Assembly: GCA_017519685.1 (NCBI GenBank)
Contig: JAFWRV010000317.1
Location: forward strand, 1-12,923
Source of the DNA: Clostridia bacterium
GTDB taxonomy: Bacteria > Bacillota > Clostridia > Oscillospirales > Acutalibacteraceae
DNA: 12,923 nucleotides
Reading direction: 5' to 3'
This document shows, piece by piece, positions 1 through 9,190 of this stretch (positions within the stretch are counted from its first letter, which is position 1; each line of letters begins with the position of its first letter). The notes under the pieces are model-generated. The model saw only the letters and a list, made by a program, of their open reading frames with translations. It had not been told where the DNA came from and searched no databases. Both the position numbers and the translations under genes were made by a program.

Positions 1-725
1 GGCGCCCTTCGGGCAGAATTTAGATAACTTCTGCCCATACTGTCAACATAGCCGCGCAGAATGGCGTGCGAATACGGATTGCCCTGACTCTTGACTTCCC
101 AGCCTCTGTAAATGAAAGTGTGAGAAGATCTGCTCGCGATTATCGCGTTCATCATAACCGAAATGTCGCCGCCTGTCGGATTTTTCATACCGACGGGCGC
201 GTCGATTCCGCTTGCGATAAGACGGTGCTCCTGGTTTTCAACCGACCTTGCGCCGACCGCGACATAGGAAAGAAGGTCGCTGAGATAACGGTAGTTCGCG
301 GGGTAGAGCATTTCGTCCGCGCTCGACATACCGTAATCCGCCAGAGATTTCATATGCAGTTTCCTGATAGCGATTACGCCCTTGATAAGGTCGGGCCTTT
401 CGCTCGGGTCGGGATAGTGAAGCATTCCCTTATAGCCGCCTCCGGTGGTACGGGGTTTGTTTGTGTAAATTCTCGGAACAATCAGGATTTTGTCTCTGAC
501 TTTTTCCTGAACTTTGACGAGCCTTGAAATATAATCGAGAACGGGCTCCTCGCTGTCCGCAGAGCAGGGGCCGATAACGAGCAGAAGACGGCTGTCCTCA
601 CCCGTGAAAATTTTACGTATTTCCTCATCTCTCCGCTCTTTGATTTCAAGCGCCTCGGCAGGCACGGGATATTGTTCCTTAATCAGTTTAGGTATAGGAA
701 GTTTTCCTATGAAATCCATACCCAT
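1..725 (-). CDS. aroF: 3-deoxy-7-phosphoheptulonate (DAHP) synthase, class I, 3' end missing
   Basis: This enzyme condenses phosphoenolpyruvate and erythrose 4-phosphate, the first step of the shikimate pathway. About 241 residues are visible of a family length near 340, and the C-terminal part lies beyond the window. Recognisable landmarks are GPCS at 52-55 with the metal-binding Cys54, RIY at 85-87, KPRTT at 90-94, Lys99 in the YKG motif, SVENQEHR at 161-168 and GMKNPTGGD at 179-187. It is the last visible gene of the aro operon. The start at 725 is fixed by AGGAGGG (738-732), which overlaps the tyrA stop codon and sits 6 nt from the ATG; a second Met two codons later is possible. The last visible residues (about 232-241) do not follow the motif I expect after the HAILRG segment; see findings. 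The aroF versus aroG name is arbitrary, and I cannot tell which amino acid inhibits it. Confidence 0.93.
   Translation of the reverse strand, partial: MGMDFIGKLPIPKLIKEQYPVPAEALEIKERRDEEIRKIFTGEDSRLLLVIGPCSADSEEPVLDYISRLVKVQEKVRDKILIVPRIYTNKPRTTGGGYKGMLHYPDPSERPDLIKGVIAIRKLHMKSLADYGMSSADEMLYPANYRYLSDLLSYVAVGARSVENQEHRLIASGIDAPVGMKNPTGGDISVMMNAIIASRSSHTFIYRGWEVKSQGNPYSHAILRGYVDSMGRSYLNSARRA
11..36. repeat. 8-bp perfect inverted repeat inside the DAHP synthase reading frame
   Basis: GGGCAGAA (11-18) and TTCTGCCC (29-36) are perfect complements around a 10-nt AT-rich spacer. The flanking GCCCTTCGGGC (4-14) is a second small hairpin. Together they occupy the very edge of the window, exactly where the DAHP synthase translation departs from the family. 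It may be a coincidence within coding sequence, a repeat copy, or a contig-end artefact. Confidence 0.35.
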
Positions 726-736
726 TTTATTCCCTC

Positions 737-1597
737 CTATTTCTTTTTATCAAATAAAATCCGTCTTTCGGATGAACGGCGCATCATCGCCCTCATCGTT
801 TCAACGTCATCGTTTTCAATTGCGGTCTGAAGTTTGTTGAATTCATTCGCGAAAGTTTTCATGCTTTCAAGCAGCTTTTCTTTGTTGAGCAGAAACAGCT
901 CGCTCCACATGACATCGTTGATTCTCGCGATTCTCGTTAAATCGCGGAATGAGTCGCCTGTGTATTTCTGGAGATTCGGCTTGTCGTTGCAGGTCATAAG
1001 CGTGACCGCGATGCAGTGGGCAAGCTGAGAAAGAAAGCCGATCATATCGTCGTGCTCTTCGGGAGAAAGGCACGATACTCTTGAGAAGCCGTGCATCCAG
1101 CCGAGCATCTTGCAGGTTTCGATTGCTTCCTCGGTGTTTTTATCTGTCGGCGTGACAACGAAGTTTGCGCCTGCGAATATTTCGCTTGAAGCGTTTTCAA
1201 CTCCTCCGACTTCACGGCCCGCCATCGGGTGCGAGGCGATGAATTCAACTCCCTCGGGGAGCATATCCGATATCTTATATACTATGCCGGATTTGACACC
1301 GGTTACATCGGTAATCAGTGTGCCCGGTTTTATAAGATTGCCGTATTTTTCAATCCATTCGACAAAAATATGAGGATAGAGAGCGAAAATGATTATATCC
1401 GCCTCAGCTATCAGACGCTCATCGGGATTTGCGGCTCCCTCGGAAATTATGCCCTTATTGAGCGCATAGTCAATTGTTTCGGGGCGTCTTGCGATGGCGC
1501 TGACATAAAAATCTTTTTTTGAAAGCGCCTCGGCGTAACTGCCGCCGATTAGTCCGAGACCGACTATCAGAAATTTTGTATCTTCGTTAATCTTCAT
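737..1597 (-). CDS. tyrA: Prephenate dehydrogenase
   Basis: This protein oxidatively decarboxylates prephenate to 4-hydroxyphenylpyruvate with NAD(P), committing the pathway to tyrosine. The 286-residue protein opens with a Rossmann dinucleotide-binding motif GLGLIGGS (13-20). The family signature SHPMAG follows at 122-127, continuing into a GxE-type region typical of prephenate dehydrogenases, and the all-helical C-terminal dimerisation domain fills the rest. There is no C-terminal ACT domain, so no built-in tyrosine-binding module is visible. The start overlaps the end of aroA by 11 nt, with AAGGTGG located 6 nt upstream inside aroA. Its neighbours supply prephenate through chorismate and chorismate mutase. 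An arogenate dehydrogenase activity cannot be excluded from sequence. Confidence 0.95.
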   Translation of the reverse strand: MKINEDTKFLIVGLGLIGGSYAEALSKKDFYVSAIARRPETIDYALNKGIISEGAANPDERLIAEADIIIFALYPHIFVEWIEKYGNLIKPGTLITDVTGVKSGIVYKISDMLPEGVEFIASHPMAGREVGGVENASSEIFAGANFVVTPTDKNTEEAIETCKMLGWMHGFSRVSCLSPEEHDDMIGFLSQLAHCIAVTLMTCNDKPNLQKYTGDSFRDLTRIARINDVMWSELFLLNKEKLLESMKTFANEFNKLQTAIENDDVETMRAMMRRSSERRILFDKKK

Positions 1598-2801
1598 GAT
1601 AAACCACCTTTATTCCGGCATCCGATATTCTTTCAAAAAAATCCGGATAGCTTTTCCTTACGGCTTCCGCTCCCGCGATTTTTCCCCCTGTGATGCTGCA
1701 AAGCACAGCCAGGGCCATAACGATACGGTGATCGTTATGCGAATTAAGAACTTCATCGGGCGCGTGAAACTCTTTAGGATATATTACGACCGAGTCGTCT
1801 CCGACCGTGACGGACACTCCGAATTTGCGGAGCTCCTCAGCCATTGCTTCGGCGCGGTCGCTTTCTTTAATGCGCAGTCTTCTGGTTCCCGTATATACTC
1901 CGCCGTATTTCGAGGCGGAGAGGGCGAACATAACGGGTCCGAGGTCAGGGCAGTCGCCGATGTGAATGGACGGAGTGCCTCTTGATATGCTTTCAAAATA
2001 CTTTGAGTAAATTTTATCTCCCTGAAGACTGTCGGGGTCAAGACCGTCTATTATTACATTTCCGCCCGTGTAGTTGAAAGCGGAGAGAAACGCCGCGTTT
2101 GAATAGTCGCCCTCAACCGTGACATCGATGGGGCGGTATCGGCTGTTACCCTTTATTTTCAGGATATTCAGCGACGGCCTTTCGATTGTGACTCCCGCTA
2201 TTTCAAGCGCCCTTACGGTAAGGTCAATATATGAGCCGCTTTCAACGGGCGGCAGAACTGTTACCGTGCTGTCTTCATTCAGAAGGGGCAGCGCGAAAAG
2301 AAGTCCGCTGATAAACTGGCTGCTTATATTTCCGGGGACACGGTATTCTCCCGCCTTGAGAGGTCCTTTTACCACAACGGAGCCGGCGTCCTGCGAAAAA
2401 AGCATTCCTTTTTCCGAACACATTTCCTCATAAACATTGAGAGGACGCGAGAGCAGGTGGCTGCTACCGTCAAAGACCGTGTTTCTGCCGCAGGCGAGAG
2501 CGATGGGAATCAGAAATCTCAGCGTGCTTCCGCTTTCACGGCAGTGAAGGGTGCCGGAAGGCATTGCCGTGAGCATATCTTTTCCCGTAACGGTCACGGT
2601 GTCGCCGTTTATTTCGCAGACGGCTCCGAGCGACCGCAGGCAGTCAATCGTCGCGAGGATATCCTCGCTCTCGCTTATCCCTCTTATGGTGCTTGTGCCG
2701 TCACAGAGCGCGGCGCAGATAAGAAGGCGGTGCGCCATGCTTTTTGACGCCGGCGCCTTTATTCTGCCGCTTGCTTTTGAGGGGAATATTTCAACCGTCA
2801 T
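1587..2801 (-). CDS. aroA: 3-phosphoshikimate 1-carboxyvinyltransferase (EPSP synthase)
   Basis: EPSP synthase transfers the enolpyruvyl group of PEP to shikimate 3-phosphate, the sixth shikimate step. The protein is 404 residues, slightly short for the family but complete. Visible substrate-binding motifs are ASKSMAHR (18-25, Lys20/Ser21/Arg25), ESGSTLR (89-95), SSQF (160-163, Gln162), DCPDLGP (283-289, the presumed catalytic Asp286), KESDR (312-316, Glu313 and Arg316), HNDHR (355-359) and RKS (382-384, Lys383). Residue 96, which follows the ESGSTLR loop, is Phe where E. coli AroA has Pro101. The gene overlaps aroQ upstream and tyrA downstream by 11 nt each. An AAGGGG-type ribosome site lies about 8 nt before the ATG. 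Confidence 0.96.
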   Translation of the reverse strand: MTVEIFPSKASGRIKAPASKSMAHRLLICAALCDGTSTIRGISESEDILATIDCLRSLGAVCEINGDTVTVTGKDMLTAMPSGTLHCRESGSTLRFLIPIALACGRNTVFDGSSHLLSRPLNVYEEMCSEKGMLFSQDAGSVVVKGPLKAGEYRVPGNISSQFISGLLFALPLLNEDSTVTVLPPVESGSYIDLTVRALEIAGVTIERPSLNILKIKGNSRYRPIDVTVEGDYSNAAFLSAFNYTGGNVIIDGLDPDSLQGDKIYSKYFESISRGTPSIHIGDCPDLGPVMFALSASKYGGVYTGTRRLRIKESDRAEAMAEELRKFGVSVTVGDDSVVIYPKEFHAPDEVLNSHNDHRIVMALAVLCSITGGKIAGAEAVRKSYPDFFERISDAGIKVVYHED

Positions 2802-3243
2802 TTTTCTTCCCCTTTACATATTCAATCAGCATATCCGCCGCCTTGCAGTAGCCGGGGAATCCCTCTCCGGAAACCGTGAAAAGACAGGCGGAGCGTATGT
2901 AACTGATTTTGCGGAATTCCTCTCTTGAGTCAACATCGCTGATGTGAACTTCCGCGGCGGGCAGGGCAACGGCTTTGAGAGCGTCAAGCAGGGCGATGCT
3001 CGTGTGAGTATAGGCGCCCGGATTTATGACAATAGCGTCCGTGCCGTCGGAATACGCCTGCTGAATTCTGTCAACAAGGTCACCCTCGTGGTTGCTCTGA
3101 TAAAAATCACATTCAACTCCCGCGTTATTACAGTGGCCGCGTATTATACCGAGAAGGTCTTCATAGGTGCTGTTTCCGTATATTCCCGGTTCTCTTATGC
3201 CGAGCATATTGAGATTCGGTCCGTTAATAAAAAGGATTTTCAT
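2791..3243 (-). CDS. aroQ: 3-dehydroquinate dehydratase, type II
   Basis: This enzyme dehydrates 3-dehydroquinate to 3-dehydroshikimate, the third shikimate step. At 150 residues it has the normal size of the type II (dodecameric, trans-elimination) family, which is unrelated to type I AroD. The N-terminal motif GPNLNMLG (8-15) and the catalytic Tyr22 in GIYG are present. NPGAYTHTS (74-82) and the catalytic His100 in EVHISD, with Arg111 nearby, complete the active site. The gene begins 1 nt after the stop of the aroE-aroK fusion, with GGAGGA placed inside that gene. Its last 11 nt overlap aroA, so translation of the three is probably coupled. Confidence 0.96.
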   Translation of the reverse strand: MKILFINGPNLNMLGIREPGIYGNSTYEDLLGIIRGHCNNAGVECDFYQSNHEGDLVDRIQQAYSDGTDAIVINPGAYTHTSIALLDALKAVALPAAEVHISDVDSREEFRKISYIRSACLFTVSGEGFPGYCKAADMLIEYVKGKKNDG

Positions 3244-3244
3244 T

Positions 3245-4495
3245 TCAGCTGTCCTCCGTTATTTTTCTTACGGTTTCCTCCGCAATGTCACCTGTTTTCA
3301 GATGAACATCGGCAACCGATGTATAAACGGGATATCTTTCCCTGTATTTTCTTTCCATTGATTCCCTGTCGGACGAAAGGGGCCTTGACTGTGTCGGGAC
3401 AAGGGACTCGAGAGGCCTGTCAAGAAAATACAGTCTGCCGTTTGCTTTCAGGGCGTCAACATTTTCCCGCCTTAAAACACTGCCGCCGCCTGTCGCGATT
3501 ACGGCGCCGGTTTTGTTTATCAGACTTTTTATGATTTCGGTTTCTTTGTTTCTGAAATACTCCTCGCCTTCGCGAGCGAATATCTCGCTGATTTTTCTTC
3601 CTTCGGACTGCTCAATCAGGTCATCTGTATCAATGAACTCCCTGCCTGTTTTTTGCGCAAGAAGTTTTCCGACTGTTGTTTTTCCGCAGGCGGGCATACC
3701 GATTAAAACGGTATTCTGCTTTGAGAGAAGAACATTGTGATACGCTCTTTCACAGTCTTGCAGCGGGATATCCTCTCCGGTAAAATGTCTGACCGCTTCA
3801 ACCGCCTGCATAACCAGCATATAAAGTCCGCCGGAAGCTTTGATTCCTTTCGCCTGCGCTTTGAGAACAAGCGCGGAGCGCAGCGGATTGTAAACCGCGT
3901 CAATCACGCCTTCGAGATTTTCAAACCGGTCAATATCGAGCGGAGTCTGCCCGATTAAATCGGGAAACATTCCGAGGGGAGTGCAGTTGATGATAACCTG
4001 AGCGTCCGCGTGCTCGCTCAGCGCCTCATCATAAGTCAGCGCGCCGTCGGTTCCGTTTCTTCCGACACGGTAAAACTCCCGCGCGCAGAGCAGCGAAACG
4101 GCTTTAACGGCGGTGCGTGAGGTGCCTCCCGTGCCCGTAATCAGAACTTTTTTACCCGCAACTTCAACGCCCGTTTTTCTTATCAGAGCGGTCAGACCGT
4201 AAATATCGGTATTGTAGCCGTAAAGCTTTCCGCCGCGGTTGACCACGGTGTTGACGGCGCCGATATCCTCCGCCACGGGGTCAATATAATCAAGGTAAGG
4301 CATAACGTCTCTTTTATACGGAATTGTGACATTGATGCCGTTCCAGTTTTTCTCCCTCATAAAGCCGTCAAGCTCTCCTGGCTCGAGGGGTATCAGTTTA
4401 TAATCATAACCGGCAAGCTCGGCGTGAACAGCCACAGAATAACTGTGAGTCAGTTTTCTGCCGATACAGCCGTATAACAGTTTATCCATACTCAA
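3245..4495 (-). CDS. aroE/aroK: Bifunctional shikimate dehydrogenase / shikimate kinase fusion
   Basis: One uninterrupted 416-residue frame carries two consecutive enzymes. Residues 1 to about 255 are shikimate dehydrogenase: the KLTHSYS substrate loop (14-20), NVTIPYK with catalytic Lys61 (55-61), GAVNT (79-83), NTD with Asp97 (95-97), a TGTGGTSR nucleotide loop (120-127), NCTPLGM (170-176) and GGLYMLVMQ (222-230). Residues about 261-416 are shikimate kinase: the P-loop GMPACGKTT (266-274), DTDD (289-292), FRNKE (314-318), TGGG (335-338) and the lid arginine in RPL (371-373). Both active sites look intact. The product of the first half, shikimate, is the substrate of the second. The ATG overlaps the aroC stop in an ATGA arrangement. 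Separate aroE and aroK genes are the usual state. Confidence 0.95.
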   Translation of the reverse strand: MSMDKLLYGCIGRKLTHSYSVAVHAELAGYDYKLIPLEPGELDGFMREKNWNGINVTIPYKRDVMPYLDYIDPVAEDIGAVNTVVNRGGKLYGYNTDIYGLTALIRKTGVEVAGKKVLITGTGGTSRTAVKAVSLLCAREFYRVGRNGTDGALTYDEALSEHADAQVIINCTPLGMFPDLIGQTPLDIDRFENLEGVIDAVYNPLRSALVLKAQAKGIKASGGLYMLVMQAVEAVRHFTGEDIPLQDCERAYHNVLLSKQNTVLIGMPACGKTTVGKLLAQKTGREFIDTDDLIEQSEGRKISEIFAREGEEYFRNKETEIIKSLINKTGAVIATGGGSVLRRENVDALKANGRLYFLDRPLESLVPTQSRPLSSDRESMERKYRERYPVYTSVADVHLKTGDIAEETVRKITEDS

Positions 4496-5592
4496 TCCTT
4501 ATTTCCCGACAGATAATCGGTTCCGTATCTTCTTGCAAGCATATCGCATAAAACGATTGCGGCTGCCGCACTGACAGCGGCGGCGGCTCTGTGAACAATC
4601 GCGGGATCGTGTCTGCCTTTTATTTCGATTTCCGTGTTTTCGCCTGTCCTGAGATTTACGGTATTCTGCTTTTTCGCGATTGACGGAGTCGGCTTGACTG
4701 CACAGGAAAACAGCAAAGGCATTCCGTTTGAGATACCGCCGACAATGCCGCCGTTATTATTTGACCTGTGTGTGATTTCACCGTTTACCGAAACGGGCTC
4801 GTCATTCGCGGCGGAGCCGGTCATATCGGCAAGCTCAAATCCCTTTCCGAATTCGACGCCTTTGACGGCGGGAACGGAGAAAAGCATGTGCGACAGTTCG
4901 CCTTCAAGGGTATCAAACCACGGCTCTCCCGCTCCGCGGGGAAAGCCCGTAACCGCTGTTGTGAGAATTCCGCCGACTGAGTCCAGAGAGTTTTTCGCGG
5001 CGTTTATTTCTTCTTTCATTCTTTCGCCTGCCGCGGCATCGAGAACGGGAAAATCCGCGTTGCCGAGAATTTCAAAATCTGCGGTCAGATCGTCAAACTC
5101 CCTGTCACACACTCCGGCGCACCGGGAAATGTGGGTCGCGATTTTTATTTCTCTGTCCTCGAGGGCGCTCATGCATATCGCGCCCGCCGCGGTCAGCGCG
5201 GCGGTAATTCTGCCCGAAAAATGTCCGCCGCCGTTTTTATCCTGAAAGCCGTGATATTTGCATTCGGCGGTGTAGTCCGCGTGGCCGGGTCTCGCGAGAT
5301 ACTGCGTTTCGCCGTAGTCACCGCTTCTGGTGTCGCTGTTTGGTATCAGAATACACAGAGGAGTCCCTGTTGTGAAACCGTCTTTGACACCGCTGACGAT
5401 ACTGTATTCATCCGCTTCGCGGCGGGCGGTTGATATTGATGATTTTGCCGCCCTCGCGCTGAGCATTTTTCTTATATAATCATCTTTTATTTTTATTCCG
5501 GGAGCGAGACCGTCAAGCACCGCTCCGATATACGGCCCGTGGCTCTCGCCGAAAAGTGTCACGCTTACGCTGACACCGTAAGTGTTTTTCAT
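4492..5592 (-). CDS. aroC: Chorismate synthase
   Basis: Chorismate synthase uses reduced FMN to remove phosphate from EPSP, giving chorismate. The 366-residue protein shows the N-terminal GESHG motif (15-19, catalytic His18), RPGHADYT (101-108, catalytic His104), the FMN-binding NNNGGIVGG (278-286), KPTPSI (300-305) and the C-terminal RHDP (327-330) with the presumed catalytic Asp329. Length and motif order are those of a complete enzyme. No flavin reductase domain is fused, so it is expected to need externally reduced flavin. The ATG lies 11 nt after the aroB stop, preceded by an AGAGGTG ribosome site. Its stop overlaps the start of the aroE-aroK fusion by 4 nt. Confidence 0.97.
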   Translation of the reverse strand: MKNTYGVSVSVTLFGESHGPYIGAVLDGLAPGIKIKDDYIRKMLSARAAKSSISTARREADEYSIVSGVKDGFTTGTPLCILIPNSDTRSGDYGETQYLARPGHADYTAECKYHGFQDKNGGGHFSGRITAALTAAGAICMSALEDREIKIATHISRCAGVCDREFDDLTADFEILGNADFPVLDAAAGERMKEEINAAKNSLDSVGGILTTAVTGFPRGAGEPWFDTLEGELSHMLFSVPAVKGVEFGKGFELADMTGSAANDEPVSVNGEITHRSNNNGGIVGGISNGMPLLFSCAVKPTPSIAKKQNTVNLRTGENTEIEIKGRHDPAIVHRAAAAVSAAAAIVLCDMLARRYGTDYLSGNKD

Positions 5593-5603: not shown

Positions 5604-6596
5604 TTACGCGCCGAGTGATTTTATGAATTCATCCTTCGGCATTTTCCTGATTTCGCAGGTTCCGATACTTTCCACGCGGATAACGTTTATTGTGTCTCCG
5701 CTCATTTTTTTATCGTGAATAAGCACCTTGCAGAGCTCATCCGCCGGAATGTCTGTTGAAACGGGAAGGTCAAATTTATTCAGCAGGGGAACAAGTCTCT
5801 CCCTGACTTTGTCTGAGCACATGAAGCACATTCCGACTGCGACGCTTTCGCCGTGAAGAAGACCGCTGAGCGTTTCAACGGCGTGACCTACCGTGTGGCC
5901 GAAATTAAGGGTGCGGCGCAGTCCGTTTTCCCTTTCGTCCTTCATGACGATGCTTGCCTTAAGGGCAACGCTTCTTGAAATAACGCTGTCGAGTATCAGC
6001 GAAATATCATTGTTTTCCATCAGCTCAAAAAGGTCGGAGTCAAACGATACCGCCATTTTTATTGCTTCCGCCATACCGCTTGAAAACTGTCTTTTGTCAA
6101 GGGTGGAAAGAGTGTCGGGGTCGATAATGACTTTTTCCGGCTGATGAAAAGCGCCGACAATATTTTTCACTCCGCAGAGATCGACGGCTGTTTTTCCTCC
6201 CACCGAGGCGTCAACCTGGGAGAGCAGGGTGGTCGGAATATTATAAAAAGTAATTCCTCTCATATAACAGGCGGCGGCAAATCCGGTGATATCCGTTACC
6301 ACTCCTCCGCCGACCGCGACACAGCAATCGCTTCTTGTGAAATCGTTTTCAAGCATTGTTTTGCAGAGAAGCTCAAAATTCGCGAGGGTTTTGCTCTTTT
6401 CACCCTGCTCGATTGTAACCGTGACCGGCTGTTTGCAGAATGAGGCAACCTTCGCGGAGTATTCGGACGGAACACCCGAGTCGGTCACAATCAGCACCTT
6501 GCGGTTGAGGTCAAGCAGCCTGCCCGCTTCGGAGAGCGCGCCTCTTTCGATTGTGATTTCACTTTTTCCGCCGGGAACATTGATGTTAAGCGTCAT
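5604..6596 (-). CDS. aroB: 3-dehydroquinate synthase
   Basis: This enzyme cyclises DAHP to 3-dehydroquinate using NAD and a divalent metal, the second shikimate step. The 330-residue product is slightly shorter than the common 340-360 but contains every core motif. These are EQGEKSK (63-69), GGGVVTD (96-102), PTTLLSQVDASVGGKT (121-136) and NFGHTVGH (231-238). By alignment to the E. coli enzyme, the metal ligands are Glu177 (in GMAEAIK), His234 and His248 (in LLHGES). The start overlaps the end of the chorismate mutase gene by 11 nt, and GGAGAGGA inside that gene is the ribosome site. Confidence 0.97.
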   Translation of the reverse strand: MTLNINVPGGKSEITIERGALSEAGRLLDLNRKVLIVTDSGVPSEYSAKVASFCKQPVTVTIEQGEKSKTLANFELLCKTMLENDFTRSDCCVAVGGGVVTDITGFAAACYMRGITFYNIPTTLLSQVDASVGGKTAVDLCGVKNIVGAFHQPEKVIIDPDTLSTLDKRQFSSGMAEAIKMAVSFDSDLFELMENNDISLILDSVISRSVALKASIVMKDERENGLRRTLNFGHTVGHAVETLSGLLHGESVAVGMCFMCSDKVRERLVPLLNKFDLPVSTDIPADELCKVLIHDKKMSGDTINVIRVESIGTCEIRKMPKDEFIKSLGA

Positions 6597-6876
6597 TGTT
6601 ATCCTCTCCGTTAAGTTTTTTCTGATAGCTGCGGGATAAAGCCATTGTGTTTTTAAGAAAATCTATATAATATTCTTTTAAGTTTTCATTATCTATATAT
6701 GCCAGATTTCTGCTGATGTTTTCGCTTTCCCTCGCGGGATCGGAAACGGGAATGCCGTTTTCCCTTTTATAAGCGGCGATTTTATCCGCTGTTTCCATGC
6801 GGCGGACAAACAGCTCCGCCATAAGTCTGTCTGTTTCCTCTATTTCTTTTCTCAATGCTGTGAGTCTGTCATCCAT
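6586..6876 (-). CDS. Chorismate mutase, AroQ-fold (monofunctional)
   Basis: This small all-helical enzyme rearranges chorismate to prephenate, the branch toward tyrosine and phenylalanine. The 96-residue protein matches the AroQ class. By alignment to the E. coli mutase domain, the active-site set is Arg9, Arg26, Lys37, Asp46, Arg49/Glu50, Ser81 and Gln85, all present. There is no attached dehydratase, dehydrogenase or ACT domain. It is the first gene of the aro operon. Its ATG lies about 40 nt downstream of the predicted transcription start, with GGAGGA (6887-6882) 5 nt upstream. Placing the branch-point enzyme first and the pathway entry enzyme last reverses the biochemical order. The symbol is left blank because aroQ is already used here for the dehydroquinase. 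Confidence 0.94.
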   Translation of the reverse strand: MDDRLTALRKEIEETDRLMAELFVRRMETADKIAAYKRENGIPVSDPARESENISRNLAYIDNENLKEYYIDFLKNTMALSRSYQKKLNGEDNNDA

Positions 6877-6894
6877 AAACTATCCTCCGAAATG

Positions 6895-6913
6895 ATGTTA
6901 ACAGTGTTAACAT
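6895..6913. promoter_or_regulatory. Operator 1: perfect 19-bp palindrome at the aro promoter
   Basis: ATGTTAACAGTGTTAACAT is a perfect inverted repeat: 9-nt arms around a central G at 6904. It lies between the predicted aro transcription start (about 6916) and the chorismate mutase start codon, just upstream of the ribosome site. A bound dimeric repressor here would block the start of transcription. Size and symmetry fit a TetR-family site, and 17 of 19 bases recur in operator 2. That the neighbouring TetR protein binds it is inference. Confidence 0.8.
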
Positions 6914-6922
6914 ATTGATGAT

Positions 6923-6950
6923 ATTATACACGACTTTCAGAAAATTTCAA
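6923..6950 (-). promoter_or_regulatory. Predicted promoter of the aro operon
   Basis: Read on the minus strand, TTGAAA (6950-6945) and a perfect TATAAT (6928-6923) are separated by 16 nt. The expected start near 6916 falls at the edge of operator 1. The leader of about 40 nt is too short for a T-box, tryptophan-type attenuator or riboswitch, so control is expected at initiation. Confidence 0.75.
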
Positions 6951-6971
6951 GGGGTAAATGCAAGTTTTTTA

Positions 6972-7000
6972 TTGATTTTACGAATTTTTTATGATATGAT
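6972..7000 (+). promoter_or_regulatory. Predicted promoter of the tetR-exporter operon
   Basis: TTGATT (6972-6977) and TATGAT (6995-7000) are spaced by 17 nt. The -10 hexamer overlaps the left arm of operator 2, so a bound repressor would exclude RNA polymerase. The expected start near 7007 lies downstream of the in-frame ATG at 6996, which argues against that codon and for the ATG at 7035. Confidence 0.65.
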
Positions 7001-7014
7001 AACAGCGTTAACAT
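6996..7014. promoter_or_regulatory. Operator 2: 19-bp near-palindrome at the tetR promoter
   Basis: ATGATAACAGCGTTAACAT differs from operator 1 at only two of 19 positions (4 and 11), in the same orientation. Its arms pair at 7 of 9 positions. It covers the tetR -10 and predicted start site, the classic position for autorepression. The two operator centres are 101 bp apart (6904 and 7005). Confidence 0.75.
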
Positions 7015-7034
7015 ATACAGAAGCGGTGACATTG

Positions 7035-7592
7035 ATGGATGAAAACTATGAAAATCCCGACCTCAGGACAAAACTGATTATAGCGGGGCTCGATGAGCTT
7101 GACACTCACGGAGTAACCGATTTTTCATTAAGACGCGTGGCATCGAAATGCGGAGTTTCCTGCGCCGCGCCGTACCGTCATTTCAAAAACAAGGATGAAC
7201 TGATTCTCGAAATAATCGGATATATCGTAAGCCGCTGGCAGCTGCTTGAAAAGCAGATTGAGGAGGTCTGCTCTGATTCTCTGCCGGAGCTGATTACCGA
7301 GCTTTCACTCGCGCTGATAAGATTCCGCGCGGCGAATCCCGAATTCCGCGCCGTGCTCCGTATGGACACGCGCGCGTTTGACGAAAAGCAGAGGACGGAC
7401 CTTTCGAAATTTACGGAACGGATACTTTATTACGCCGATAAATATTTTTCTCCTTACGGTGAAAAGACACTTGCCGGAAAAAAATTCATGCTGATTTCAA
7501 TGATATACGGAGCTGGCGAAATCAGCGACAGTTATGACGGCGAGTTTCCGCTTGAAACAGTACGCGCCTGTCTGGAGGAGCTTTTCGGATGA
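7035..7592 (+). CDS. TetR/AcrR-family transcriptional regulator
   Basis: This 185-residue protein has the TetR layout: an N-terminal helix-turn-helix (about residues 11-57) with a typical recognition segment SLRRVASKCGVSCAAPYRHF (31-50), followed by a variable helical ligand-binding domain of ordinary size. The family acts as dimeric repressors released by a small ligand. The ATG at 7035 is chosen because of its GGTGA ribosome site and its place about 28 nt after the predicted promoter; upstream in-frame codons lie in or before the promoter. The stop overlaps the exporter start (ATGA), so the two are co-translated. Twin palindromes at this promoter and at the aro promoter suggest it represses both. 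The ligand is unknown; an aromatic amino acid, chorismate-derived compound or exporter substrate are the obvious candidates. Confidence 0.9.
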   Translation: MDENYENPDLRTKLIIAGLDELDTHGVTDFSLRRVASKCGVSCAAPYRHFKNKDELILEIIGYIVSRWQLLEKQIEEVCSDSLPELITELSLALIRFRAANPEFRAVLRMDTRAFDEKQRTDLSKFTERILYYADKYFSPYGEKTLAGKKFMLISMIYGAGEISDSYDGEFPLETVRACLEELFG

Positions 7593-8494
7593 ACGGGACA
7601 AACAAAAAATCGGTTTTCTGTGTTCTGCTTTCGGGAATATTATGGGGACTGATTACGATTTTTATAAAACGCCTTTCAAAAGGCGGACTCGACGCGATGA
7701 ATATTTCGTTTATCCGTATGATTGTTTCCGCCCCTTTGTTTACGGCGTTTCTGCTGATAAAGGACCGCGAAAAAATGAAAATCAATCCTAAGGATATTCC
7801 TCTTTTTATCGGCACGGGAATAATCAGCGTCGTGCTTTTCAACTCCGCGTATTTTTACACAATGATTCATTCGCAGGCGTCAATAGCCGTTGTGCTGCTT
7901 TACACTTCGCCTGTTTTCATTATGATACTATCGGCAATTATATTCAGGGAAAAGATAACCCTGCGGAAAACCGCTGCTCTTATCCTGACTCTCTGCGGCT
8001 GCGTTTTTGTCGCCGGATTTATCGGGAACGGATATAAAATCACGCCACTGATTTTGCTGACGGGTCTCGGCTCGGGACTGTTTTACGGGCTTTATACGAT
8101 ATTCGGCAGGTTTGCGCTCAAAAAGTATGATACGCTGACCGTCAACGCCTATACTTTTATTTTCGGATTGATAGGGTCCGCCGCTGTGGGAAAACCTGTT
8201 CAGACCGTACGCGTTATCTCCGCCGAGCCGGAGCTGCTTTTATGGTGCGCCGGAATAGGAATATTCTGCACGATTCTTCCTTATTTCTTTTATACCAAAG
8301 GTCTTGAGGGACTTGACTCCGGCAAAGCGGCAATCATTGTCGCAGTTGAGCCGCTGGTCGGCTCCATGCTCGGGATGGCTGTTTATCACGAACCTCATAC
8401 TCCTCTGAAAATCGCGGGAATCGCGCTTATTCTCACGGCGATAGTTCTTCTTAATCTGCCCGGGAAAAAGCGGGAAACGGAGAATAAAATATAA
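7589..8494 (+). CDS. DMT-superfamily (EamA) transporter, probable exporter
   Basis: The 301-residue, strongly hydrophobic protein has about ten membrane segments arranged as two repeated EamA halves (roughly residues 9-139 and 152-292). The family-typical stretch SQASIAVVLLYTSPVF ends the first half, and LDSGKAAIIVAVEPLVGSMLG marks the equivalent place in the second. The C-terminus is short and basic. EamA proteins mostly export amino acids or other metabolites, and the aromatic amino acid exporter YddG belongs to the same superfamily. It is translationally coupled to the TetR gene and followed by a terminator, so tetR and the exporter form a two-gene operon. Export of an aromatic metabolite is inferred from the shared operators, not from the protein sequence. 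Confidence 0.92.
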   Translation: MNGTNKKSVFCVLLSGILWGLITIFIKRLSKGGLDAMNISFIRMIVSAPLFTAFLLIKDREKMKINPKDIPLFIGTGIISVVLFNSAYFYTMIHSQASIAVVLLYTSPVFIMILSAIIFREKITLRKTAALILTLCGCVFVAGFIGNGYKITPLILLTGLGSGLFYGLYTIFGRFALKKYDTLTVNAYTFIFGLIGSAAVGKPVQTVRVISAEPELLLWCAGIGIFCTILPYFFYTKGLEGLDSGKAAIIVAVEPLVGSMLGMAVYHEPHTPLKIAGIALILTAIVLLNLPGKKRETENKI

Positions 8495-8499
8495 TTACT

Positions 8500-8559
8500 G
8501 CCCGGAGGCGAACAGCATCTTTTCGTTGCTGTCTGCCGCCGGGCGGATTTTTGTTTTTT
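8500..8559 (+). terminator. Rho-independent terminator after the exporter gene
   Basis: Left arm 8500-8517 and right arm 8527-8544 pair at 15 of 18 positions, with GCCCGG/CCGGGC at the base, closing a 9-nt loop. They are followed by a T-rich tract (8548-8559). It starts 6 nt past the exporter stop codon and closes the tetR-exporter operon. Confidence 0.85.
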
Positions 8560-8902: not shown

Positions 8903-9148
8903 TTATTTGATACCCAGAAGTTCGTTAACGCTGATGTCGAGAACTTCGGAAAGCGCTTTGAGTTCAAAATCGCTGACGCCTCTGATCTGACCTTCTATTT
9001 TTGAAAGGCCCGAAGCATTTATCTCGATTCCTTTAATCTGGAGTTTGGTAAGGAGATCGCATTGTTTCATATTGAGTTGCTTGCGTCTGGCTTCAATCTT
9101 TGCGCCGACGATGTTCATATCGCCGAGCTGCTGTTTTCTGATACGCAT
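8903..9148 (-). CDS. Small XRE/Cro-type helix-turn-helix regulator
   Basis: The 81-residue protein is essentially one Cro/C1-type DNA-binding domain. Helix 1 starts around NIVGAKIEARRKQLNM (12-27), the helix-turn-helix spans about 28-52 with SGLSKIEGQ (46-54), and the usual closing pattern LSEVLDISVNELLG (66-79) follows. There is no ligand-binding or peptidase domain. A longer frame begins at 9166, but GGGAGAGGT (9160-9152) sits immediately before the ATG at 9148 and would be inside the longer version, so 9148 is preferred. It is divergent from pncB and has its own promoter and terminator. Its target is unknown; autoregulation or control of pncB are possible from position only. Confidence 0.85.
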   Translation of the reverse strand: MRIRKQQLGDMNIVGAKIEARRKQLNMKQCDLLTKLQIKGIEINASGLSKIEGQIRGVSDFELKALSEVLDISVNELLGIK

Positions 9149-9190
9149 AATACCTCTCCCAATCATTAACTAGTTATTAAAATTTAGAAA

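Follow-up and report, generated by a model that had tools for sequence, protein, structure and literature searches.

A TetR-family regulator and its probable palindromic operator linked to the aromatic biosynthesis operon in several clostridial families

The promoter of the aromatic amino acid biosynthesis (aro) operon in the window, which is the whole 12,923-nucleotide stretch of clostridial DNA analysed here (G000:C339), is very probably the target of a TetR-family repressor acting through a palindromic operator. The aro operon lies on the minus strand and the tetR-eamA pair on the plus strand, with the operators between them (Table 1). Comparison of sequences among relatives showed that this branch of TetR proteins goes with the operator and that the operator goes with the aro promoter, while physical binding, the sign of control (repression versus activation) and the ligand are what we infer from that association. 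Taken as a whole, our proposal, which we hold with slightly less than even confidence, is that an undescribed orthologous group of TetR proteins serves as a tyrosine-responsive repressor of the shikimate-tyrosine genes in several clostridial families, with a specificity switch of helix and operator and, in one genus, an arrangement in series with a tyrosine T-box.

Table 1. Features of the window
Feature	Position	Strand	Remarks
Operator 1	6895..6913	.	perfect 19-nt palindrome at aro promoter, directly downstream of -10 box
Operator 2	6996..7014	.	17/19 copy of operator 1, overlaps tetR-eamA -10 box
aro promoter TTGAAA-16-TATAAT	6923..6950	-	TTGAAA 6950-6945, 16 nt, TATAAT 6928-6923; 11/12 consensus letters
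tetR-eamA promoter TTGATT-17-TATGAT	6972..7000	+	weak, 9/12; TTGATT 6972-6977, 17 nt, TATGAT 6995-7000; TG precedes second hexamer
TetR-family regulator, 185 aa, proposed aromatic repressor	7035..7592	+	PF00440 E 7e-9
EamA/DMT transporter	7589..8494	+	PF00892 E 2e-49; 4-nt overlap with tetR stop
Chorismate mutase type II, aro operon gene 1	6586..6876	-	PF01817
aroB, 3-dehydroquinate synthase	5604..6596	-	
aroC, chorismate synthase	4492..5592	-	
aroE-aroK fusion, shikimate dehydrogenase + shikimate kinase	3245..4495	-	
aroQ, type II dehydroquinase	2791..3243	-	
aroA, EPSP synthase	1587..2801	-	
tyrA, prephenate dehydrogenase	737..1597	-	
aroF-type DAHP synthase, cut by window end	3..725	-	PF00793

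Background

In gammaproteobacteria, the transcription factors TyrR and TrpR set the aromatic biosynthesis genes according to the amino-acid supply, and the control of aromatic biosynthesis in clostridia has been described mainly through T-boxes. TyrR and TrpR belong to protein families unrelated to the regulator considered here, a TetR protein whose regulon is mostly local. Among TetR proteins of amino-acid metabolism, McbR is reportedly released from DNA by S-adenosylhomocysteine.

HisR (PMC9413887), a TrpR-family protein of Firmicutes, was found by comparative genomics in clostridia as an amino-acid repressor with a regulon of an operon and a transporter; it works alongside T-boxes in some lineages, needs histidine for DNA binding and has the motif cacTTTAnnnnnnTAAAgtg. 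HisR is the nearest precedent in kind, although its family, its amino acid and its motif all differ from those of the TetR case. McbR of Corynebacterium glutamicum (PMC1266029), a TetR-family protein, represses amino-acid biosynthesis from sites that overlap promoters; it differs in acting on sulphur amino acids, in its wide regulon and in its use of S-adenosylhomocysteine, and it is likened here by description, not by orthology. The tyrosine T-box, which controls a tyrosine biosynthesis operon in the B. cereus group and also Tyr transporters (PMC2494555), does the same job by an RNA mechanism, whereas the window contained neither a T-box nor any other Rfam element at the gathering threshold.

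No description of TetR control of an aro operon was found in the literature searched, outside which most subscription papers lie, and no paper was found that prints the operator string; TetR proteins do not seem to have been reported before as switches for aromatic amino acids. If a repressor of this family is dedicated to aro, with an operator both short and exact, many uncultured genera would gain a named regulator and regulon, a ready-made aromatic-sensing part would be at hand, and the natural covariation of operator and recognition helix is material for testing specificity rules.

Genomes and loci

TetR homologues were sought in 300 genomes of the family (17 with a match, the window's own genome included), 394 of the order (23), 196 of family f21 (29) and 291 of the class (13). 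From GTDB contigs, 80 of 98 TetR loci were taken. The draws overlap with one another. A tblastn search over the 80 contig loci found aro genes adjoining TetR in L021 alone. Of the 82 TetR loci compared in all, 62 came from the other draws and 20 from three sources: the window, the family draw, and the GTDB contigs, of which the best three were used. The 82 include duplicates, namely L187 (the genome of L021) and the pairs L016/L181 and L017/L180, which are identical places found twice. L187 was removed from the counts, its aspB and pheA being 100% identical to those of L021, its promoter identical and both contigs 34,109 bases long. G401 was added to the aro-linked set, and the TetR tree excludes L187, L180 and L181.

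Results

Both 9-nt arms of operator 1 (ATGTTAACA-G-TGTTAACAT) are perfect, and operator 2 (ATGATAACA-G-CGTTAACAT) is identical to it at 17 of 19 positions and spaced 101 nt from it. The first-pass annotation had reported this perfect palindrome and its copy on two back-to-back promoters, and recomputation confirmed the coordinates, the identity and both promoters. Two sites of the form GTTAACNNNGTTAAC (at most one mismatch) within 6877-7034 appeared in none of 20,000 dinucleotide shuffles, at least one site appeared in 22 of them, and the single perfect 19-nt palindrome of the window compares with 0.065 expected. The core GTTAACANTGTTAAC with up to three mismatches was found within the window only at operators 1 and 2, and at least two such weak matches also arose in 11 of 200 whole-window shuffles. 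In the window's own genome (2.34 Mb, 84.8% complete), the 19-mer with up to three mismatches occurred at both operators and at one more place (three mismatches), and a backward control pattern gave one match. The 15-nt core of operator 1 lies 11 nt downstream of the aro -10 box.

The regulator contained a TetR_N helix-turn-helix domain (PF00440, 35.7 bits against a cut-off of 24), which was its sole domain at E 0.001, with no AAA/ACT domain of TyrR and no TrpR domain. The AlphaFold model predicted an all-helical protein of nine helices (mean pLDDT 91), the C-terminal domain included, and a palindromic operator adjoins the protein's own gene, as in the TetR family. Against the characterised subfamilies AcrR, MtrR, BetI, SlmA, FabR and TetR, the NCBIfam equivalog cut-offs were missed, the best score being 34.3 bits against 280. 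The best sequence matches from NCBIfam or from solved structures included AcrR, MtrR, SlmA and NalD proteins, but they act on other targets and the NCBIfam scores here fall far below the curated cut-offs. An alternative in-frame ATG of tetR at 6996 would give 198 aa and would put operator 2 within the gene; most close relatives begin near the position matching 7035.

Conservation of the operator at the aro promoter

This TetR was linked to an aro operon at 35 distinct loci, which represent 35 genomes, 18 genera and 6 families. The two faced each other across the intergenic region at 34 of the 35, with one unrelated gene between them at L109, and the operon opened with an aminotransferase, a chorismate mutase-prephenate dehydratase or a short chorismate mutase, the last being the case in the window. 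At all 35 loci the interval from the aro -10 box to the first aro gene contained a palindrome, perfect or nearly so, whose core begins 8-21 nt after the -10 box; the promoters are mostly near-consensus. GTTAACNNNGTTAAC with at most one mismatch was present at 31 of them, against 0.06 expected from shuffles of the same regions, and both GTTAAC arms were exact at 28. The test set beforehand was whether relatives with the same gene pair keep the palindrome, and it came out with the same operator at 31 of 35 loci and a covarying form at the other four. The two palindromes had also been presented as a pair; the aro site was kept throughout (35/35), whereas the tetR-side site (at most two mismatches) was found at 11 of 35 loci, the window included, and in several of these its spacing from the aro site was about 100 nt, like that of the window.

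The remaining four loci (L166, L199, L200 and L201), all of genus g223, carried GTTATCATTGATAA(C/T) at the corresponding place, a change from GTTAAC to GTTATC. The recognition region of the g223 protein reads SCATPYNYF versus SCAAPY(R/K)H(F/Y), and among the listed proteins it was changed in g223 only. Compared with the 35 aro-type proteins, across which A45 and H49 are invariant and position 34 is R in 83%, the g223 helix-turn-helix carries R34Q, A45T and H49Y; the protein also differs outside this motif at the conserved positions 93, 100, 158 and 159. Since the recognition helix and the operator change together in g223, whose four species in one genus amount to one evolutionary event, the TetR protein is tied to the DNA site.

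Proposed mechanism and signal

In the mechanism that we propose, TetR would be a local repressor of the aro operon, its dimer sitting on GTTAACANTGTTAAC directly downstream of the aro -10 box and hindering initiation or early elongation. In the window genome, TetR would also occupy the second copy at its own promoter and limit both itself and the co-transcribed EamA transporter. The most likely signal would be an aromatic end product, tyrosine first, which would make a feedback switch doing the job of TyrR or of the tyrosine T-box.

Of the 7 genomes of genus g73, five had the core (one mismatch or none) at the aro promoter and five had it before an SSF symporter gene. Four of the five symporter sites (L265:1272-1515, L267:1273-1515, L274 and L275) were directly followed by an Rfam T-box (100.5-108.6 bits, cut-off 93) ahead of the SSF sodium symporter gene, two control layers on one transcript; the operator at the symporter of G401 was exact, with no T-box match. 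Ahead of the closing stem, the specifier loop has the sequence GUGAAUAC(C/A), and we take the specifier to be UAC (tyrosine), in the register of well-studied T-boxes. This reading is register-dependent, as a shift of one base gives ACC/ACA (Thr); the predicted fold of L274 agreed with the register and the other three folds were uninformative. Aromatic biosynthesis and symporter uptake under one repressor fit end-product feedback, and the operator at a symporter whose T-box is read as UAC points to tyrosine as the signal. In g73, the symporter transcript would be subject first to repression by TetR at its promoter and then to termination that senses tRNA. We put the chances that the signal is tyrosine or another aromatic end product at about even. 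TetR proteins are usually released from DNA by their ligand, so that end-product repression needs the opposite sign, and it is odd logic for one repressor to govern both an exporter and a biosynthetic operon; both points count against the proposal.

The same repressor could instead be released by an inducer, either a pathway intermediate or a foreign aromatic, and we consider this a real though less probable course. Release by an inducer is the usual chemistry of TetR proteins, and in the window the co-control of EamA would suit relief when some compound accumulates. McbR offers an example of a TetR repressor that acts on amino-acid genes and is modulated by S-adenosylhomocysteine (PMC1266029). 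The co-control of aro and the T-box(UAC) symporter in g73 is better explained by end-product feedback.

Separation of tetR from aro and the EamA transporter

The operator remains at aro where tetR has moved away. In G062 (L109), tetR lay 1.2 kb from the operator at aro, and the gene between them was unrelated; in G1136 (L268), the operator was at aro with three genes between aro and tetR; in G073 and G184, tetR and aro were on different contigs and the operator was still at the aro promoter. These trans cases contradict the idea that TetR is an ordinary regulator of its own gene and the exporter, affecting aro through overlapping divergent promoters. Such a regulator would explain the tetR-side second site in the window and at 10 other loci, but it is very improbable, for the aro site is the better and conserved one, it is kept with tetR on another contig or 1.2-3 kb away, and eamA was seen in the window only.

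In the fetched stretches of the compared loci, tblastn found eamA adjoining tetR in the window alone. The genes downstream of tetR varied among the loci inspected, including a P-type ATPase, an acyltransferase and a glyoxalase, and no conserved exporter was found there. The EamA protein scored below the NCBIfam cut-offs, among them that for the YddG aromatic amino acid exporter (NF050091; 24.4 bits against 300), and had no PDB relative at E 0.01. Since the aro site was present at 35 of 35 loci and eamA in the window only, aro control is the shared function and the exporter is probably a local add-on, as far as gene order and sequence can tell. Of the initial suggestion that TetR governs both its exporter and the aro genes, the aro part was supported at all 35 loci, whereas the exporter part lost ground, with eamA confined to the window and the second site to 11 of 35 loci.

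Distribution of the operator and of TetR

Our results also bear on whether some other DNA-binding protein owns the palindrome, with TetR as a bystander. In family f21, the exact core GTTAACANTGTTAAC occurred in 16 of 196 genomes and the backward control pattern in one of 196. Among the TetR-positive genomes it was present in 13 of 29, always at aro-tetR, and among the TetR-negative genomes in 3 of 167, two inside open reading frames, one beside a gene end and none at aro (Fisher P 4e-10). The 16 TetR-positive genomes of f21 that lack the exact core comprise 11 whose TetR falls outside the aro clade, four of the variant genus, and G864, which has a one-mismatch core. When one mismatch was allowed, 32 of the 33 TetR-positive genomes searched had a site at the TetR-adjoining aro or degV locus, the exception being G592 of the variant genus g223; of the 32, 24 had no other site, G878 had two at the same locus and seven had a further site elsewhere. 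That the exact core stands at aro only in TetR-positive genomes of f21, that no site precedes aro in 20 TetR-less genomes of the window's genus (below), and that operator and recognition helix change together make a bystander TetR highly unlikely. TetR as an activator of aro is also highly unlikely, since the operator core lies 8-21 nt past the -10 box, over the transcription start, at 35 loci with mostly near-consensus promoters.

In the tree of TetR proteins, one clade (support 0.987) contained all TetRs divergently linked to aro, together with those of G062, G1136, G073 and G184, and 38 of its 42 tips came from genomes with the operator at aro. Three tips were not placed at aro, namely L106 (the deepest branch), L212 and L022, whose contig starts inside tetR; in G258, also of the aro clade, sites were found at an SSF gene and a MarR gene and none at aro. 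The sister clade was linked to degV and other genes, and its TetRs had the same GTTAAC palindrome before degV (FakB-like) genes (L107 9464-9478; L155 and L171 2198-2212; L260; L261). At degV-type loci, tetR was adjacent in G055 and G641 and elsewhere in the genome in G489 and G504. The operator alone therefore does not imply aro control. The DegV/FakB link of the sister clade suggested a role connected with fatty acids, which was considered and not adopted. At L204, a TetR outside the aro clade was followed in the same orientation, about 1 kb further on, by a pheA-like gene, and the operator was absent.

The window's own genus

No match to this TetR at E 1e-8 was found in the 44 other genomes of the window's genus (of the 45 with its own, 15 are at least 90% complete and 40 have an aroB match), so that its presence in the window is exceptional, the window's metagenome-assembled genome itself being only 85% complete. 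TetR in the window, yet in 0/44 other genomes of the genus, makes a clear case of core-pathway rewiring. At 29 same-genus aro loci, taken with about 1.5 kb on either side, the stretch before the first recognised aro gene lacked any site within one mismatch except at L132, where the match lies 388 nt before aroB and the operon start is unrecognised; the stretch of L129 has no upstream DNA. In longer stretches round aro from 20 TetR-less genomes of the genus, neither a site with at most one mismatch nor the GTTATC form was found (0/20). These comprise 18 of the chorismate mutase/pheA-first kind and two of the tyrA-aroB kind; in L289 and L294 the stretch reaches less than 0.5 kb upstream of the operon. 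The nearest relative is G331, with an AroB 62% identical, and there chorismate mutase is preceded by a gene of the same orientation. T-box or other RNA control was considered for the TetR-less aro operons of the genus and set aside, as 20 of the 29 loci gave no Rfam match.

Further operator-like sites

Two genomes of genus g255, both of which also carry the core at aro, had a site between a response regulator gene and ychF (exact in G736, L244:1501-1515; one mismatch in G741, L241:1501-1515), and from these sites the regulon may be wider in that genus. No link to aromatics was seen, and the site was not accepted as a member of an aromatic regulon. In G570:C2:18386, G591:C2:10378 and G533:C9:115797, a second TetR paralogue (L183-L185), which adjoins AMP-binding and BioY genes, had a GTAAACANTGTTAAC site about 1.75 kb upstream; the site is perhaps the promoter of this gene set. 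Further sites were also found in G107 C20, G849 C54 and G591 C25.

With the degenerate centre GTTAACRSYGTTAAC, 17 of 398 family genomes gave a match. Six matches stood at promoters, near aro (G000, G062 and G107), degV (G055), a symporter (G401) and degV/another TetR (G045). The matches of the other 11 genomes were coding-like or promoterless by eye, and the centre ANT was therefore used afterwards.

Minor observations

In two genomes of g73, operator-like sites preceded genes of the MarR family (with one mismatch in G258, and with one mismatch to a looser pattern in G357; L254:1501-1515 and L264:1501-1515). At L014, L016, L017 and L216-L221, the genes of more distant TetR relatives were preceded by GTTTACANNGTCAAC-like sites, one or two each. 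In G045, which also carries a deep-branching member of the aro clade, GTTAACGCCGTTAAC was flanked by a degV-like gene and by a TetR gene whose product has a TetR_C_8 domain (L154:1501-1515). A Gut-1 RNA (RF01706) was found directly downstream of tetR at L190:2123-2203.

Within the window, the aroE-aroK fusion is one 416-aa protein, and several relatives likewise have both domains in one reading frame. By eye, a GC-rich hairpin with a T-run was seen 3' of eamA (8499-8547), and a small gene at 8903-9166, without an NCBIfam match, reads like an Xre-type HTH protein.
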